Part shown: positions 34,499-40,057 of the stretch, one piece after another
Position numbering within the stretch: the stretch's first letter is position 1
Layout of the letters: each line of letters begins with the position of its first letter
NCBI GenBank assembly: GCA_021806045.1
Contig: JAJZDI010000015.1
Coordinates: 9,443 to 57,549 of the forward strand
From: Actinomycetes bacterium
GTDB lineage: Bacteria > Actinomycetota > Acidimicrobiia > Acidimicrobiales > RAAP-2
DNA: 48,107 nt
Reading direction: 5' to 3'
Notes under the pieces: generated by a model
The model's input: only the letters and a program-made list of their open reading frames with translations
Told to the model about the DNA's origin: nothing
Databases searched by the model: none
Made by a program: the position numbers and the translations under genes

Positions 34499-35233
34499 AT
34501 GTGCGTGGGCGAGCCTGGCCAGCCAGCTCCAGTGGCGGAATCCCTGCCCCGGGCCCCCCGCCCTGGCCGCAGGCGGCCGGGCCGCCCACGTTCCGCCGAC
34601 GGCCCGGCGGTGACCCGTGACGCCATCGTCGACACCGCACTGCGCGCCACGGCGGCCAACGGCTGCCAGGGTCTCGCACTCCGCCAGGTGGCCCGGGAGC
34701 TCGACGTCTCCCTGGCGACGGTCCAGCGGCACTTCGCCACCAAGGACGACCTGTGGCGCGCCTGCATCGACACCGTGATGAGCCAGCCCATCGACATCGA
34801 CGGCGCCGACGGTCTCGAAGCCGAGCTGCACGGCTACCTCCGGGCCATGATCGACCGGGCGACCCTCTCCCCTGCGGCCACCGCCGCCATGTGGAACGAC
34901 ACGGGACCGGGCTGCGACGAGCGGATCGCCTACCTGGTCGACAAGGTGCGTCCCCGGTATGACGCATACCGCGACGCGTTGGAGGCGGCTATGGCCGCCG
35001 GGGACATCCGCACTGTCGAGCCGGGCGTGGTGCTGGCCATGGTCGGGCTCGGGATCACGTCGATGGCCAGCGCGCCGGCCGCACTGCGCCTGCTGTTCGG
35101 TATCGACCTCGACGATCAGGGCCAGCGTGACGCACTCGCCTCGTCGTTGGCCGACGTCCTCCTCCACGGCATCCTCCCCAGGCATGCAACAGCGCCGGCA
35201 GGCGATGCATCACGGCCGGCACCGCGTGGCTGA
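34499..35233 (+). CDS. TetR-family regulator
   Basis: 244 residues. A 38-residue Pro/Arg-rich N-terminal tail precedes the helix-turn-helix (TRDAIVDTALRATAANGCQGLALRQVARELDVSLATVQRHFATKDDLWRACI). The C-terminal ligand domain spans about 100-225. The upstream TTGGTAAGCT lies so close to the start that the mRNA may be leaderless, and GTG 34505 is another possible start. The targets are unknown; the AhpD-like gene converges on it. Confidence 0.88.
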   Translation: MCVGEPGQPAPVAESLPRAPRPGRRRPGRPRSADGPAVTRDAIVDTALRATAANGCQGLALRQVARELDVSLATVQRHFATKDDLWRACIDTVMSQPIDIDGADGLEAELHGYLRAMIDRATLSPAATAAMWNDTGPGCDERIAYLVDKVRPRYDAYRDALEAAMAAGDIRTVEPGVVLAMVGLGITSMASAPAALRLLFGIDLDDQGQRDALASSLADVLLHGILPRHATAPAGDASRPAPRG

Positions 35234-35301
35234 CGGCTCCGGCGCCGGCTCGCCATCCCCCACGGCGTGCGGCACGGCCGGGCATCGGCCGGAACGCGCC
35301 C

Positions 35302-35646
35302 TCAGGCCTCGCTCGCGTACTCGACGAACGCGGCCAGTGCGCGCGGTCCCCAGACGGTGCCGGGACCGCCGTTCATCGAGATCACCACCCCCATGGCTTC
35401 GGCGACCTCGCGCTCGGTGGCTCCGGCCCTGGCCGCGCCCCGGCCGTGGGAGGCCACGCACCCGTCACATTCACGGGTCGCAGCGATGGCCAGGGCGATG
35501 AGCTCCTTCACCTTGACCGGGAGCTCACCCTCGGCGAAGGCGGCATGGTGCATGGCTCGGTAACCGTCGAGGACACCGGGGATCTGTTCACGGAGCCGCC
35601 GTGCCGGCTCCCGGAGGTCGGCTGCCACCTGGTGCGCACTGTCCAT
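35302..35646 (-). CDS. AhpD-like / carboxymuconolactone decarboxylase family protein
   Basis: 114 residues, all-helical. The CxxC-x3-H motif of AhpD-like members is present: C60-x-x-C63-x3-H67 (ECDGCVASH), which suggests a thiol-redox role rather than decarboxylase activity. KVKELIALAIAATREC and EAMGVVISMNGGPG fit the family. GAGGAG lies seven bases before ATG 35646. Its promoter would lie in the repeat-rich gap upstream. Confidence 0.9.
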   Translation of the reverse strand: MDSAHQVAADLREPARRLREQIPGVLDGYRAMHHAAFAEGELPVKVKELIALAIAATRECDGCVASHGRGAARAGATEREVAEAMGVVISMNGGPGTVWGPRALAAFVEYASEA

Positions 35647-35683
35647 GTTCGGCTCCTCTGCTCTCGCCCGTCCGCCCGGAGGC

Positions 35684-35717
35684 CGGCCGTCCTGGCGGCC
35701 CGGCCGTCCTGGCGGCC
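35684..35717. repeat. 17-bp perfect tandem duplication
   Basis: cggccgtcctggcggcc is present twice back to back (35684-35700, 35701-35717), 37 bases upstream of the AhpD-like gene start. It may affect its promoter or 5' leader. Confidence 0.8.
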
Positions 35718-35869
35718 GTCCGGCGACGTGTCCACCATAACGTCGCAGGCGGTGCGACCCCCGGCGCGCGATCAGGGAGACCCGATCGTGCAGGCCGGTG
35801 TGTTCATCTGTGGAGCGAACCAGGTGGCGCGCACCGCTCCGGCTCGTCCGGGTGGTGCGCTTCAGGCGG

Positions 35870-35949
35870 CCTGGCTGGCAGTGTTGGCGGGAACGCTGCC
35901 AGCCAGGACCTGGCGACCTGGTGGGGACGCGTTCCGCCCCCCCACCAGG
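35870..35949 (+). ncRNA. Two tandem strong hairpins, candidate structured leader RNA
   Basis: Hairpin 1: CCTGGCTGGCAG (35870-35881) pairs perfectly with CTGCCAGCCAGG (35896-35907) and extends inward to a 16-bp stem with one wobble and a six-base GGCGGG loop. Hairpin 2: CCTGGTGGGG (35917-35926) pairs with CCCCACCAGG (35940-35949), 10 bp, 13-base loop. CCTGG segments at 35870, 35909 and 35917 can compete for the same CCAGG partners, so alternative folds exist. The structure lies 68-147 bases upstream of the membrane-protein operon. It matches no riboswitch class I know. Strand is assumed from the downstream operon. Confidence 0.6.
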
Positions 35950-36016
35950 ACCGGTACGCTTCCCCCGGCGACACGGGACCGGCGCCAGCCCGTGCGGGAG
36001 ACGGTGGGGAGTTGTG

Positions 36017-37747
36017 GTGGGCCGAGCGATCGATGACGAGCTGACGCCCGGAAGGACGTTCCTGAGCCGCCGCGGCACCGTCTATGTCGCCTACCGGCTC
36101 GCCGCCCGGGCGACGATCGCCGGGACGTTGGGTACGGGCGCCACCCGCAGGCAGCGGGCGCTGCTTGCCGCCGGGACCGCCGCCGACGTGGTCGCCGGAT
36201 GGGTGTTGGGCCGCCGCCCGGGTACGGGCTTGCGCACCCGCCTCGTGGCCGACGCACTCGAGACCACCTACTGGGGTCGGCAACTCGAGCACGCAGACGC
36301 CGCCGCGCTGCTCGGCATGCCGCTCATGTTCGAGGCGGGCCTGCGCATGGACCCCGAGAACTTCGCCGCCACCACTGCCGGCGTCGCCGGCATCGCCGCC
36401 GCTCTCGCCGCCAGTCGTCGGACCAGGGGGAGGCCCTCCGGTCTGGCCGCCTTCCGGCATCACAGCTTCGGTGTCATCAGCGGTGTCCTCCACACCCTCT
36501 ACGAGCGCAGCCGGTTGTCGGCGGCCGTCTCTCTCCACCGGGCCGAGGTGGCCGCTCGCTGCCAGCAGGCCCGCCTGGCCGGGCAGAACGCGGTCGCCAT
36601 GGGCGCAGACTCGATCGTCGACCTGTTGAGCCGCACCGCGCCGCTCCTCCGCCGGCCCGGGGCCGAGTCGGCGGACCCCTTCGCCCGTCAGCTGGCCGAG
36701 TGGAAGCGGTCGTTGGCCGACGAGACGACCGCGTCGGCCACCTACCTCGGGGTGGTCGTGGCTCGCTGGCAACGACGCACCAACGACGCCCACCCGGACC
36801 TGGCAGCCGACGTCGTCATCGACGTCGAACCGGGCGACGGGACCGTCGTGCTCAGCGTCGGCCAGGCCGGGCACCTGGTGCGGGCACTCGATGCTCTGGA
36901 CCTCCGGGGTCGCGTCCGCCTGTCCGTGGAGCCCGACGGGCGCGACGGCCGGCCTGACCGGCCGGTCAACCTCCAGATCGGGGATCGGCGGGTGACCATC
37001 CCCCCCGAGCCCGGCGGTCGGTTCGGGCCGATCGATTTAGGCCCCATCGCGTTCATCATCAGCTCGCTGTGGGCACTCGACCGTGCCTCGCCGAGATCGG
37101 TGATGATCCGGAAGGACCTCGCCGCTGGCCTCTCGGCGTCGAACGTGGCATTCGCGGCGTGGTCGCACCGGGAGATCGTCCGGCACGGCGCCCGGGCCCG
37201 CCCGTCGATCCTGGCCGCGTCCGTCGCCATGGCGGTCGTCGACGCGGTGGTCGTCACCCGGTCCGTGCGCCAACCGGTGAACCCGGACGGTTGGTCCTTC
37301 TTCGCCGCTTCCACCTCGGTGGCCACACCGGCCGCGCTCACATCGCACTATTGGCGCGACCTGACCCCGCGCCAACGGCTGGCCGGCATCGTCGGATCGG
37401 CCGGCGTCCTGGCGCTCGGGCTCGCCATCGAGCGGTCCCGCCCCGGACTGCGTTCGATCGTCGTCGAATTGGCGTGGCCGTTGGCCTTTGTGGTGTCGGT
37501 CGGATCGCTCGAACAGGCGACGGCCCGGGTCGAGGGCGAGGTCGCCCGATCCCTCGAGGCTGAGGACGAGGAACGGATCGCCACCGCGTTCGACGAGGGG
37601 CGGGCAGCGGTCATCGATCTTGCCGCCCGGCACTACCAGTGGGTGCGGTCCACGTTCGACGGCGTCCGGGACGAGCTCGATCCCCGCACCCGAACCGAGC
37701 TGGAGCGGCGGGTCACCGAGGTCGCCGCCCGATTGGAGGCACTGTGA
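36017..37747 (+). CDS. Unrecognised membrane protein, first gene of a receiver-protein/dioxygenase operon
   Basis: 576 residues, not recognised. The N-terminal half has hydrophobic segments (about 25-140) and then a helical stretch AARCQQARLAGQNAVAMGADSIVDLLSRTAPLL. A middle beta-rich part follows (TVVLSVGQAGHLVRALDALD, RVRLSVEPDGRDGRPDRPVNL). The C-terminal half again has hydrophobic segments (RPSILAASVAMAVVDAVVV, LAGIVGSAGVLALGLAI, LAWPLAFVVSVGSLEQA) and a helical stretch ARSLEAEDEERIATAFDEGRAAVIDLAARHYQWV. The two halves look like an internal duplication. The place of a histidine kinase before a receiver gene fits a sensor, but no phosphorylatable His box or N/G1/G2 ATP-binding boxes are visible. 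GTG 36017 has GGGGAG five bases upstream. It overlaps the next gene (GTGA). Confidence 0.7.
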   Translation: MGRAIDDELTPGRTFLSRRGTVYVAYRLAARATIAGTLGTGATRRQRALLAAGTAADVVAGWVLGRRPGTGLRTRLVADALETTYWGRQLEHADAAALLGMPLMFEAGLRMDPENFAATTAGVAGIAAALAASRRTRGRPSGLAAFRHHSFGVISGVLHTLYERSRLSAAVSLHRAEVAARCQQARLAGQNAVAMGADSIVDLLSRTAPLLRRPGAESADPFARQLAEWKRSLADETTASATYLGVVVARWQRRTNDAHPDLAADVVIDVEPGDGTVVLSVGQAGHLVRALDALDLRGRVRLSVEPDGRDGRPDRPVNLQIGDRRVTIPPEPGGRFGPIDLGPIAFIISSLWALDRASPRSVMIRKDLAAGLSASNVAFAAWSHREIVRHGARARPSILAASVAMAVVDAVVVTRSVRQPVNPDGWSFFAASTSVATPAALTSHYWRDLTPRQRLAGIVGSAGVLALGLAIERSRPGLRSIVVELAWPLAFVVSVGSLEQATARVEGEVARSLEAEDEERIATAFDEGRAAVIDLAARHYQWVRSTFDGVRDELDPRTRTELERRVTEVAARLEAL

Positions 37748-38445
37748 CCGTCTGCCGGGTGGCTGTCATCGACGACGACGACGTCAGCCGGCGCGGCTAC
37801 GTCGAACTGCTCGGGGAACACCCGGACATCGAGGTCGCCGTCAGCCTCGACCACTCCCAGGCGCTGTCGTGGCCGGGGGAGTGGAGGTCGATCGACGTGG
37901 CGCTGGTCGACGCGGCGGACGATCGCAGCCCGGGCGACCAGTTCCCGGGCGTCGCCGTGGTCGAGCGCATCCGGTGCCTCGTCCCACCGGGTCGGCCCGT
38001 CATCGTCGTGGTCACCGGGCACTTCTTCGACGACGCCGTCCGAACCCGCATGCGCGAGGCCCGAGCTGACCTCTTCTATCACCGTTCGGAGTTCGCTGAC
38101 GTCCGCCGCCTGTACCAGGTGGTCCTGCACCCGGAGGCGGAGCGGTCGGACGTCCCGCCTCCTCGCGACGCCGACGCGCTCATCCGGTTGGGGGTGAACT
38201 CGGCCACCAACGTCAACAAGTCGGTGCGGTGGGCCGCGGACGAGGCGCTCCTGCCCGAACCGGGATCGCGCCTCCCCCGAGGTCGGGCCCGCTACCGGTT
38301 GCGCCGGAACTTCAACCGGGTCGCCCGCCTCAACCCGGTGAACAAGGACGGCACGCCGCCCGACCGCGTGCAGGACGAACCGTCCTTGCCGCAGATCGAG
38401 CGGTTCCTGCGGTGGGCGACCCGGTCGAAGGACGACCGGCCATGA
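37744..38445 (+). CDS. Atypical response-regulator receiver protein
   Basis: 233 residues. Residues 1-130 look like a receiver domain: acidic cluster IDDDD (9-13), phospho-acceptor region VALVDAADD, and the conserved Thr in VIVVVTGHFF. The Lys expected after the fifth strand is replaced (ADLFYHRSEF). The C-terminal 100 residues are very basic (RLPRGRARYRLRRNFNRVARLNP) and end SLPQIERFLRWATR. This is not a helix-turn-helix I recognise, though it could bind nucleic acid. The gene overlaps its neighbours on both sides (GTGA before, ATGA after), so it is made together with the membrane protein and the dioxygenase. Confidence 0.75.
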   Translation: MTVCRVAVIDDDDVSRRGYVELLGEHPDIEVAVSLDHSQALSWPGEWRSIDVALVDAADDRSPGDQFPGVAVVERIRCLVPPGRPVIVVVTGHFFDDAVRTRMREARADLFYHRSEFADVRRLYQVVLHPEAERSDVPPPRDADALIRLGVNSATNVNKSVRWAADEALLPEPGSRLPRGRARYRLRRNFNRVARLNPVNKDGTPPDRVQDEPSLPQIERFLRWATRSKDDRP

Positions 38446-39236
38446 CTGCCTCCCGGCTGCCCGCGCTCTTCATCGGCCACGGCAGCCCGATGAACACGCT
38501 CGAGGTGAACCGCTACACGATGGCGTGGCGGGAGCTCGGGGCCACCCTGCCCCGCCCGCGGGCGGTGCTGGCCATCTCGGCCCACTGGTTCGTGCCGATG
38601 ACGGCGGTCACCGCCATGGCCCGCCCCCGTACCATCCACGACTTCTTCGGGTTCCCGGCCGAGCTCTTCGCCTTCGACTACCCGGCACCGGGCTCGCCGG
38701 AGGTCGCCGCCGAGGTGGCCGAGGTGGCCGGGCCGACCTGGGTCGGGCTCGACGCCGACTCCTGGGGCCTGGACCACGGGACGTGGTCGGTGCTCGCCCA
38801 TCTGTTCCCGGAGGCCGACGTCCCCGTGGTGCAGCTCTCGGTGCATGCGGGCGAGCCGCTCGCCTACCACGTCGACCTGGGCCGGCGCCTGGCGCCGCTG
38901 CGTGAGCGGGGCGTGCTGGTGGTGGCCAGCGGCAACGTCGTCCACAACCTGCGACTGCTCGACCCCTCGCAGGTCGACGCGGGGGCCGACTGGGCCGAGC
39001 GGTTCGACGGGGCGGTCCGCCAGGTGATGGGCAGCGCGCCGGCGTCGATCGGCGAGCTCGAACGCCATGCCGACTACCGGCTGGCCGCACCCACCCCCGA
39101 CCACTTCCTCCCCCTTGCCTACCTCGCCGGCCTGGCGGACGCCGCCGGCCAGGTCGCCCGCACCGCCGTCACCGGCTGTGCCCTCGGGTCGCTGTCGATG
39201 ACGTCGTTCGTGCTGGAGGGCGACGGGGCCGGATAG
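38442..39236 (+). CDS. LigB/DODA-type extradiol dioxygenase
   Basis: 264 residues, class III ring-cleaving dioxygenase fold of the 4,5-DOPA dioxygenase (YgiD) branch. Expected metal ligands: His in LFIGHGSPMN (near 13), His in ISAHWF (near 48), LDHGTWSVLAHLFPEADVPVVQLSV, and ASGNVVHNLRLL with a late His. Relatives open catechol-type rings such as DOPA, usually with zinc or iron. The start overlaps the receiver gene (ATGA). A hairpin terminator follows immediately. Confidence 0.9.
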   Translation: MTASRLPALFIGHGSPMNTLEVNRYTMAWRELGATLPRPRAVLAISAHWFVPMTAVTAMARPRTIHDFFGFPAELFAFDYPAPGSPEVAAEVAEVAGPTWVGLDADSWGLDHGTWSVLAHLFPEADVPVVQLSVHAGEPLAYHVDLGRRLAPLRERGVLVVASGNVVHNLRLLDPSQVDAGADWAERFDGAVRQVMGSAPASIGELERHADYRLAAPTPDHFLPLAYLAGLADAAGQVARTAVTGCALGSLSMTSFVLEGDGAG

Positions 39237-39256
39237 CGCTCCGTCGTGCGGAGCGC
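39236..39256 (+). terminator. Terminator hairpin of the membrane protein-receiver-dioxygenase operon
   Basis: GCGCTCCG (39236-39243), loop TCGTG, CGGAGCGC (39249-39256): a perfect 8-bp stem beginning in the dioxygenase stop codon. No T-run follows. Confidence 0.65.
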
Positions 39257-39352
39257 ACGCACGCTGCGAGCGGGAATGGTGATGGCGACGGCCGGCCCGG
39301 CGTGCCTCGCTGGGCGGCGTGCCGAGGATGCGGCTTGGCGGCCGCCGGGCAC

Positions 39353-40057
39353 ATGCCAGACTGGCGCAGACGCAGACGGTCTCCGGAGGACCCCCTGACC
39401 CCCCTGTTCCGGTTCGATGACATCCATGTGCGGTTCGGTGACCGGGAGGTCATCGCCGGCGTCGACCTCGACGTCGAACCTTGCCGGATCACGGTGCTCA
39501 CCGGCCCGTCCGGATCGGGGAAGACCACCCTGCTCCGCCTGTGCAACCGTCTCGACGTCCCGACCTCGGGGCGCCTCGTGTTCAACGGCGACGACGTCGC
39601 CAGCCTGGACCCACTGGCACTCCGGCGCCGGGTGGGGATGGTGTTCCAACGACCGACGCTCTTCGGTGGCACCGTCCGGGACAACCTGGCCGTGGCCCTG
39701 CCGGGTGCCACCGAGGAGGCGATGCGCGACGTGCTGGACCGGGTCGGGCTGCCCACCGAGCTGCTCTCCTCCGCCGGCGACACGCTGTCGGGAGGCGAGG
39801 CCCAGCGGGTCTGCCTGGCCCGGACGCTGCTGACCGAGCCCGAGGTCCTGTTGATGGACGAGCCCACGTCATCCCTCGACGCCGGTGCCACACGCGTCCT
39901 CGAGGACCTGACCGCCGAGCTTGTGGAAGTCGGCCTCAGCGTGCTGTGGGTCAGCCATGACCTGGCGCAGGTGCGCCGGATCGCCTGCGACCGGATCGTG
40001 CTGATGGACGGCCGGATCGCCGATTCAGAGCTCGCAGCCGAGTACCTGGGACGGTGA
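39353..40057 (+). CDS. FetA-like ABC ATPase
   Basis: 234 residues from ATG 39353. Walker A GPSGSGKTT, Q-loop MVFQRPTLFGGTVRDNL, signature LSGGEAQR, Walker B VLLMDEPTSSLD and His-switch VSHDLAQ. Paired with a FetB/UPF0014 permease 58 bases downstream; in enteric bacteria FetAB exports iron under oxidative stress. An alternative start is CTG 39395, four bases after GGAGGA (39385-39390), which would begin MTPLFRFDDIHV and fits the family N-terminus better than the Arg-rich RRRRRSPEDP extension. Confidence 0.85.
   Translation: MPDWRRRRRSPEDPLTPLFRFDDIHVRFGDREVIAGVDLDVEPCRITVLTGPSGSGKTTLLRLCNRLDVPTSGRLVFNGDDVASLDPLALRRRVGMVFQRPTLFGGTVRDNLAVALPGATEEAMRDVLDRVGLPTELLSSAGDTLSGGEAQRVCLARTLLTEPEVLLMDEPTSSLDAGATRVLEDLTAELVEVGLSVLWVSHDLAQVRRIACDRIVLMDGRIADSELAAEYLGR

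Follow-up and report, generated by a model that had tools for sequence, protein, structure and literature searches.

A conserved actinobacterial gene pair encoding a membrane protein without kinase motifs and a receiver protein without the usual lysine

A gene pair, here termed A-B, was examined in a 48,107-nucleotide stretch of DNA from an Actinomycetes bacterium (GTDB order Acidimicrobiales, RAAP-2; GenBank assembly GCA_021806045.1, contig JAJZDI010000015.1, positions 9,443 to 57,549 of the forward strand), hereafter the window. A-B is a receiver-based signaling pair whose membrane partner, A, is not a recognizable kinase, and it forms a conserved unit scattered among distant actinobacteria. 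The pair is named in none of the family libraries searched, in line with a preliminary description made from the letters of this DNA alone that had called the genes unrecognized, and no account of it was found among open-licence papers, among the matches listed. Chances are about even that A and B constitute a dedicated two-gene membrane signaling module, related to but distinct from an ordinary two-component system, in which A would control B by contact. A dioxygenase gene of the DODA type that overlaps the end of B looks like a bystander, an accidental neighbor of the pair. The two genes are as follows (window coordinates):

36017–37747, + strand: gene A, a 576-residue membrane protein, supported by its open reading frame (ORF), a structure model with a mean predicted local distance difference test (pLDDT) value of 83, and homologues adjoining B
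37744–38445, + strand: gene B, a 233-residue protein with a receiver fold and a basic C-terminal domain, supported by its ORF and a weak Response_reg match

Conservation of the Pair

Besides the window, 28 neighborhood loci were examined, one of which (L040) carries an ordinary regulator and was set aside, leaving 27 family loci. Both genes are present in 19 of these, so the adjacency on which the preliminary description had hinged recurs well beyond the window. Gene order varies: some lineages have A-B, others have B-A, and L020 has a convergent arrangement; retention of the partnership despite such rearrangement is good evidence of a working link. A scan for B across contigs, limited to one genome per species, returned eight loci, all eight with an A homologue beside B. 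Their records name Acidimicrobiaceae, Aquihabitans, Thermoactinospora, Actinomadura (two), Actinoallomurus (two), and an unclassified actinomycete metagenome-assembled genome.

Profile searches of whole genomes retrieved B in 3 of 396 genomes of a phylum sample, 7 of 395 of a class sample, and 10 of 200 of a family sample around genome G798, and A in 7 of 395 and 10 of 200 of the latter two. The class sample, which includes the window's own genome, holds eight carriers of A or B, six of them with both (Fisher p 1e-11), and in the family sample A and B fall in the same 10 of 10 carriers (Fisher p 4e-17), four of which were already known from the earlier contig scan for B; these p values ignore relatedness, and the A and B searches apparently used the same genome draw. 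Pairwise distances of A and of B correlate (r 0.83; 20 pairs, 190 comparisons), a correlation to which common descent adds.

An all-versus-all comparison of called neighboring genes in 25 family loci, the window included, gave no recurrent third gene besides A and B, an absence that is soft given that the home-made gene caller missed genes in several loci (e.g., A as well as B in L020 and in L030). What we take, from sequences alone, to be a secG-like gene occurs near the pair in five loci (L056, L057, L059, L061, and L013), and presumptive gap-, pgk-, tpiA-, and RbpA-like genes in four. A mobile or defense role was considered and rejected. B had no match in plasmids or phages and A none in plasmids, PHROGs returned no match at E ≤ 0.1, and the sole PADLOC match was a subtilase model for A (E 0.0044).

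A Receiver without the Usual Lysine

Protein B divides into two parts:

37744–38133, + strand: B receiver domain, residues 1–130, with the Asp56 codon at 37909–37911 and that of Arg114, at the Lys position, at 38083–38085
38164–38442, + strand: B C-terminal domain, unnamed, residues 141–233, basic

By its structure model, B certainly has the (beta-alpha)5 fold of receivers, the receiver part matching the Spo0A receiver (5wq0) with Z 17.5 and a root-mean-square deviation (rmsd) of 2.2 over 122 aligned residues in VIA comparison. In sequence the likeness is weaker. Window B scores 17.7 bits against Pfam Response_reg (PF00072), below the cut-off of 30.2, and the family matches all 12 scanned B members at E ≤ 5 (best 6.3e-7). 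The active site is kept almost throughout: among 25 homologues Asp56 is invariant, residue 91 is Thr in 22 and Ser in three, residue 10 is Asp in 24 and Glu in one, and residue 11 is Asp in 24 and Asn in one. The receiver Lys, which couples phosphorylation to output, is the exception. Residue 114 is Arg in 21 homologues, His in three, and a gap in one, and Lys occurs at neither residue 113, checked in case the register is off by one, nor residue 114 in any of the 24 readable homologues.

A pseudo-receiver is, according to Bourret et al. 2025 (PMC12632262), a receiver-like domain without at least one of five conserved residues. B falls under this definition through its missing Lys, and Arg is a common Lys replacement among those proteins too. 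Compared with the pseudo-receivers treated there, B has a conserved membrane partner gene, and almost every member retains the remaining four residues. By residue pattern B is therefore a pseudo-receiver in this sense, yet one that appears to retain nearly all active-site chemistry. Its closest relatives lie among DesK-DesR and NarL-type systems, the receiver being near those of DesR, Spo0A, and LiaR in fold and near the NarL-type receivers spr1814, DevR, and MadR in sequence. Unlike these systems, A-B is without a HisKA_3 partner in 26 of 27 loci, the Lys of B is replaced, and no LuxR helix-turn-helix match was found in B.

The C-terminal part of B had been described as basic and without a known DNA-binding fold, and the family bears this out: the mean net charge over 25 homologues is +6 for the C-terminal domain and −8 for the receiver part, and no fold is securely matched. 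The domain is conserved: a Gly and two Arg are the same in all 24 sequences compared. A match to the MarR-type winged helix 3e6m (E 0.0054, 20.1 bits) is a lead only; Pfam MarR was not matched in 24 B members, and the B model has helices alone, with no wing. Six of the 24 instead gave an Rv0623-like match, at E 0.016 in the best case, which conflicts with the MarR match.

The retained active site feeds the main rival to contact control, in which B would remain a phosphorylated regulator, its phosphate coming from an unlinked kinase or from small phosphodonors, and A would set the phosphorylation state of B as a phosphatase or adaptor in the membrane. In its favor, every homologue has Asp56 and a Thr or Ser at residue 91, and the acidic pair is almost as constant (position 10, 25/25 Asp or Glu; position 11, 24/25 Asp). 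The receiver part also resembles NarL/DesR-type receivers most, and L058 carries a HisKA_3 kinase and a NarL-type regulator immediately 5′ of A. The Lys replacement in 24 of 24 readable homologues runs counter to such a regulator, as does the failure to show a phosphatase motif in A, the DxxxD likeness to the HisKA_3 His box having failed a profile scan (see below). A HisKA_3-type kinase was moreover detected near one of 27 family loci only (L058; six-frame scan, E ≤ 1e-3). On balance we regard this explanation as unlikely.

Two variants of B were seen. In L061/L054 (G918 contig C12), B is without the C-terminal part of the receiver and keeps its C-terminal domain, an apparent internal deletion. 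L036 and L037 (G339 contig C4) are two copies, ~21 kb apart, of a divergent B subfamily that reads PHCQHP in the stretch following the receiver Thr; no A was found in G339.

A Membrane Partner without Kinase Motifs

Protein A shows the following segments:

36071–36511, + strand: first six-helix membrane block, residues 19–165, from model helices and averaged hydropathy
36509–36790, + strand: long juxtamembrane helix and helical hairpin, with the motif AGQNxVAMGADSVVDLL at about residues 187–204
36737–37024, + strand: small alpha/beta domain, residues 241–336, with a topology weakly like a truncated GHKL/HATPase fold
37040–37516, + strand: second six-helix membrane block, residues 342–500, from hydropathy, the model, and a profile match to the first block
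37517–37744, + strand: C-terminal long helix and hairpin, residues 501–576, with an AFxxGRxxV motif

The structure model (mean pLDDT 83; predicted template modeling score 0.71) predicts ~12 membrane helices in the order six transmembrane (TM) helices, helix, small alpha/beta domain, six TM helices, helix, with a long helix spanning residues 144 to 211 before the first hairpin. Hydropathy averaged over nine sequences supports the two membrane blocks, some helices being weakly hydrophobic. Library searches said little about the family. The only Pfam match of window A at E ≤ 1 was DUF4396 (E 0.21, below cut-off), and NCBIfam gave none at E ≤ 1. Matches to LEPR-XLL (NCBIfam, E 0.0023, in one of 11 A members) and, among PDB sequences, to RecA fusions (E 0.0018–0.0095, no stretch passing alone) and TehA (0.4) were dismissed as chance.

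A second reading of the membrane protein was that it is duplicated, and this is likely, though not proven, on profile evidence. With 23 A sequences, the halves align at a score of 34.0 (P 2e-4, 153 columns), compared with 17.4 for a reversed control and at most 19.4 for 100 column shuffles; the swapped run agreed with this in register (P 3.5e-4, 51 columns). TM-rich single proteins (n = 23) scored at most 20.4 against the A halves, a milder control than another deep profile would be, as these are single sequences. Other results are less favorable: the same test with a nine-sequence profile failed, and single C-halves are weak against the N profile (9.9–21.1; the window's own, 14.2), 10 of 23 exceeding the best TM-rich control of that profile (16.3).

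A occupies the place of a sensor kinase but shows neither a His box nor ATP-binding boxes, as was noted from the window. No HisKA or HATPase match was obtained in 11 A members (Pfam E ≤ 5, NCBIfam E ≤ 1), inspection of the alpha/beta domain revealed no N, G1, or G2 box, and none of the columns that are invariant or nearly so across the 11 holds a His. Sensor histidine kinases have recognizable HisKA/HATPase sequences and a conserved phospho-acceptor His in a dimerization helix; neither was found in A. An alignment of A residues 165–336 with 25 HisKA_3 kinases by hhalign was not significant (P 0.06; its two parts, 0.05 and 0.38). A His-box relic was nevertheless considered, GADSVVDLL having been likened by eye to LHDSVGHAL of HisKA_3 kinases (His to Ala), and was rejected: with a position-specific scoring matrix from 25 kinases run over the A family, the candidate register did not rank in the top eight of the 545 windows, and even the top-scoring window, at −38.2, did worse than 300 permuted profiles did on average at their best (−37.0).

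What kinase likeness there is lies in the fold of the alpha/beta domain. The listed VIA rows confined to it are PhoQ (Z 5.8, rmsd 3.0, 81 aligned), PDK (Z 5.6, rmsd 3.0, 85 aligned), and EL346 (Z 5.5, rmsd 3.1, 84 aligned), all GHKL proteins; Z values under 8 can reflect a mere common arrangement, and absence from the VIA lists was not taken as exclusion. Foldseek gave PhoQ a probability of 0.87 but an E of 1.6. The domain bears a weak GHKL likeness, and no normal HATPase or HisKA domain was found. A could be a genuine histidine kinase that has diverged very far, which would make A-B a normal two-component system that profiles no longer recognize; the place of A beside a receiver gene and the GHKL matches (Z 5.5–5.8) would suit this. 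We consider it improbable. The domain has ~95 residues and continues into a membrane helix, inspection showed none of the three boxes, no invariant or nearly invariant column holds a His, the hhalign P is 0.06, and every Z is under 8.

Other parallels are the pseudo-histidine kinases DivL and, from Corynebacterium glutamicum, ChrS, the latter described as a pseudokinase in PMC9491836. Like A, they are membrane proteins in a kinase slot that lack catalysis and possibly act by partner binding. DivL and ChrS are recognizable kinases that lost function, whereas A has no recognizable HisKA/HATPase sequence and, unlike them, continues beyond its alpha/beta domain into another membrane block.

In overall arrangement A resembles membrane adenylyl cyclases (AC9, AC5, and AC8), which also have two six-helix blocks each followed by a long helix (VIA Z 9–11, rmsd 5.7–8.2; for AC9, Z 11.2, rmsd 5.7, 314 aligned). 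Identity is ~10%, such Z values can be reached by helical models from arrangement alone, and no class III cyclase domain was found in the 11 A members (Pfam E ≤ 5, NCBIfam E ≤ 1). The AC9-like arrangement and ~12 predicted membrane helices would fit a pair whose effector is A, acting perhaps as a transporter or membrane enzyme under the control of B as a soluble subunit. This too we hold to be quite unlikely: no transporter or cyclase family is credibly matched, 14 of the 26 invariant A columns fall within residues 180–298, outside the membrane blocks, and the extra basic domain of B would be needless in a pure control subunit.

L058 (5923–11137; G954 contig C68) differs from other loci. A HisKA_3 kinase, a NarL-type regulator, and A follow one another with 4-base overlaps, according to home-made gene calls, with B further on. 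A seems split into two frames there, and a small predicted gene on the opposite strand separates A and B.

How A May Control B

In the contact model, we infer that the two membrane blocks of A would sense a membrane or extracytoplasmic condition and that its long helices would relay the change inward, so that the helical hairpins together with the degenerate alpha/beta domain would bind or release B. The basic C-terminal domain of B would provide the output, in all likelihood by acting on DNA. A donor other than A may phosphorylate Asp56 and so tune the system, but A itself would transfer no phosphate.

A more specific form, which we advance tentatively and think doubtful, takes A to be an internally duplicated pseudo-dimer made of a single chain. 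It would be a receptor of 12 helices without a kinase, in which the two long helices stand in for the helix pair of a kinase homodimer and a single truncated ATP domain is left as a relic, and it would switch a Lys-to-Arg receiver by direct binding without phosphotransfer. If true, it would represent a class of membrane-to-receiver signaling distinct from two-component, one-component, and known pseudokinase systems.

Several observations weigh against control of B by A. The acidic pocket of B is kept, which suggests that phosphorylation still matters, and the C-terminal domain assigned the output has no secure fold match. The structure models of A and B were built from nine-row alignments. B stands without A in the fetched flanks of five of 27 loci (L031, L034, L036, L037, and L039), and A without B in those of three (L081, L082, and L083); some of these single-gene loci sit near contig ends, and two of the B-only loci come from genomes (G277 and G777) that have A on another contig. 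Genome-wide searches of G017 and G339 found no A. Co-occurrence of A and B may, finally, reflect shared descent in part.

The interest of the pair lies in what it offers the study of atypical receivers. In PMC12632262 the on/off switching of bacterial pseudo-receivers is called a mystery, and only two of 20 atypical regulators there are not orphans. A-B gives one pseudo-receiver family a conserved, linked membrane partner that has no kinase motif, making direct, phosphate-free control testable with a single gene pair such as the Thermoactinospora or Actinoallomurus one (L014, L017, and L019). It also adds an unnamed family of probably duplicated membrane proteins (A) and an unnamed C-terminal domain (B) to the catalogue.

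The Dioxygenase and Other Neighbors

The pair is flanked in the window by these features:

38442–39236, + strand: DODA, a 264-residue protein of the 4,5-DOPA-extradiol-dioxygenase family, a local neighbor outside the conserved system
39236–39256, + strand: hairpin 3′ of DODA, without a T-run
35302–35646, − strand: CMD, a carboxymuconolactone-decarboxylase/AhpD-like gene, a divergent neighbor also present in the A-B-less genome G001
35647–36016, + strand: divergent intergenic region or leader with three strong hairpins, not conserved

As first described, the three ORFs overlap, A and B by GTGA and B and DODA by ATGA, at the coordinates then given, and their third-position G+C of 0.88–0.95 is coding-like for this DNA. 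Assignment of the third protein to the DODA-type dioxygenases also stands (316.7 bits against model NF007914, curated cut-off 233). Of the terminator proposed after DODA, the hairpin is real; no T-run follows it, and a terminator scan was empty.

The overlaps had suggested one three-gene unit, and the dioxygenase a sensory or enzymatic module acting on catechol-like compounds. Neither idea survived the neighborhood survey, in which A and B stay together (19 of 27 loci) and DODA joins them in 0 of 27. No credible DODA match was present in the fetched flanks of the 27 other family loci (best tblastn E 0.91, over 28 neighborhoods including L040). DODA-like genes are common among relatives (31 of 61), and of those 31, besides the window genome, a clear A or B occurs only in G017, G024, and G031, each with DODA on another contig; four weak B matches in DODA-bearing relatives (E 1.5e-5 to 8.6e-4) were counted as ordinary receivers.

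The same-genus genome G001 provides an empty site. TetR and CMD genes there accompany a DODA 88% identical to that of the window, with ~297 bp between the aligned blocks versus ~2.8 kb, A and B included, in the window. No A was found in the G001 genome, and the B search gave a weak receiver match elsewhere (E 6.6e-4). With flanks and DODA present and A-B absent, gain or loss of the pair at this site was independent of DODA. Of 29 other DODA loci fetched, only that of G001 has CMD in its 1.5-kb flanks, which fits gain and loss alike. Although the ATGA overlap of B and DODA in the window genome would favor a module on catechol-like compounds, the survey, the separate contigs of G017, G024, and G031, and the empty G001 site together make it very improbable.

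Upstream of the pair, a TetR-type regulator and the CMD/AhpD-like gene span 34499–35646 and are kept beside DODA in G001, where A-B is missing.

The leader had been singled out as structured. It folds strongly in the window (35760–36016, z −3.89) and is not a conserved part of the system: when 257 bases 5′ of the first gene were folded against mononucleotide shuffles in 14 of the 19 paired loci, 13 gave z above −1.5 and one, L032, −4.7, with −3.1 for the window. Its reading as a riboswitch or shared element was rejected, with stability in one of 14 other loci, no Rfam family reaching its gathering score, and no full copy found elsewhere. Rfam returned one match over 35200–39400 up to E 1, a snoRNA model (18.2 bits, gathering 38) on the other strand inside gene A, and no second full copy was found in the window's own genome or 60 relatives, where matches were short and partial. 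Within 35825–35955 of the window, three consecutive strong hairpins lie between CMD and A, one of them with a 16-bp stem.

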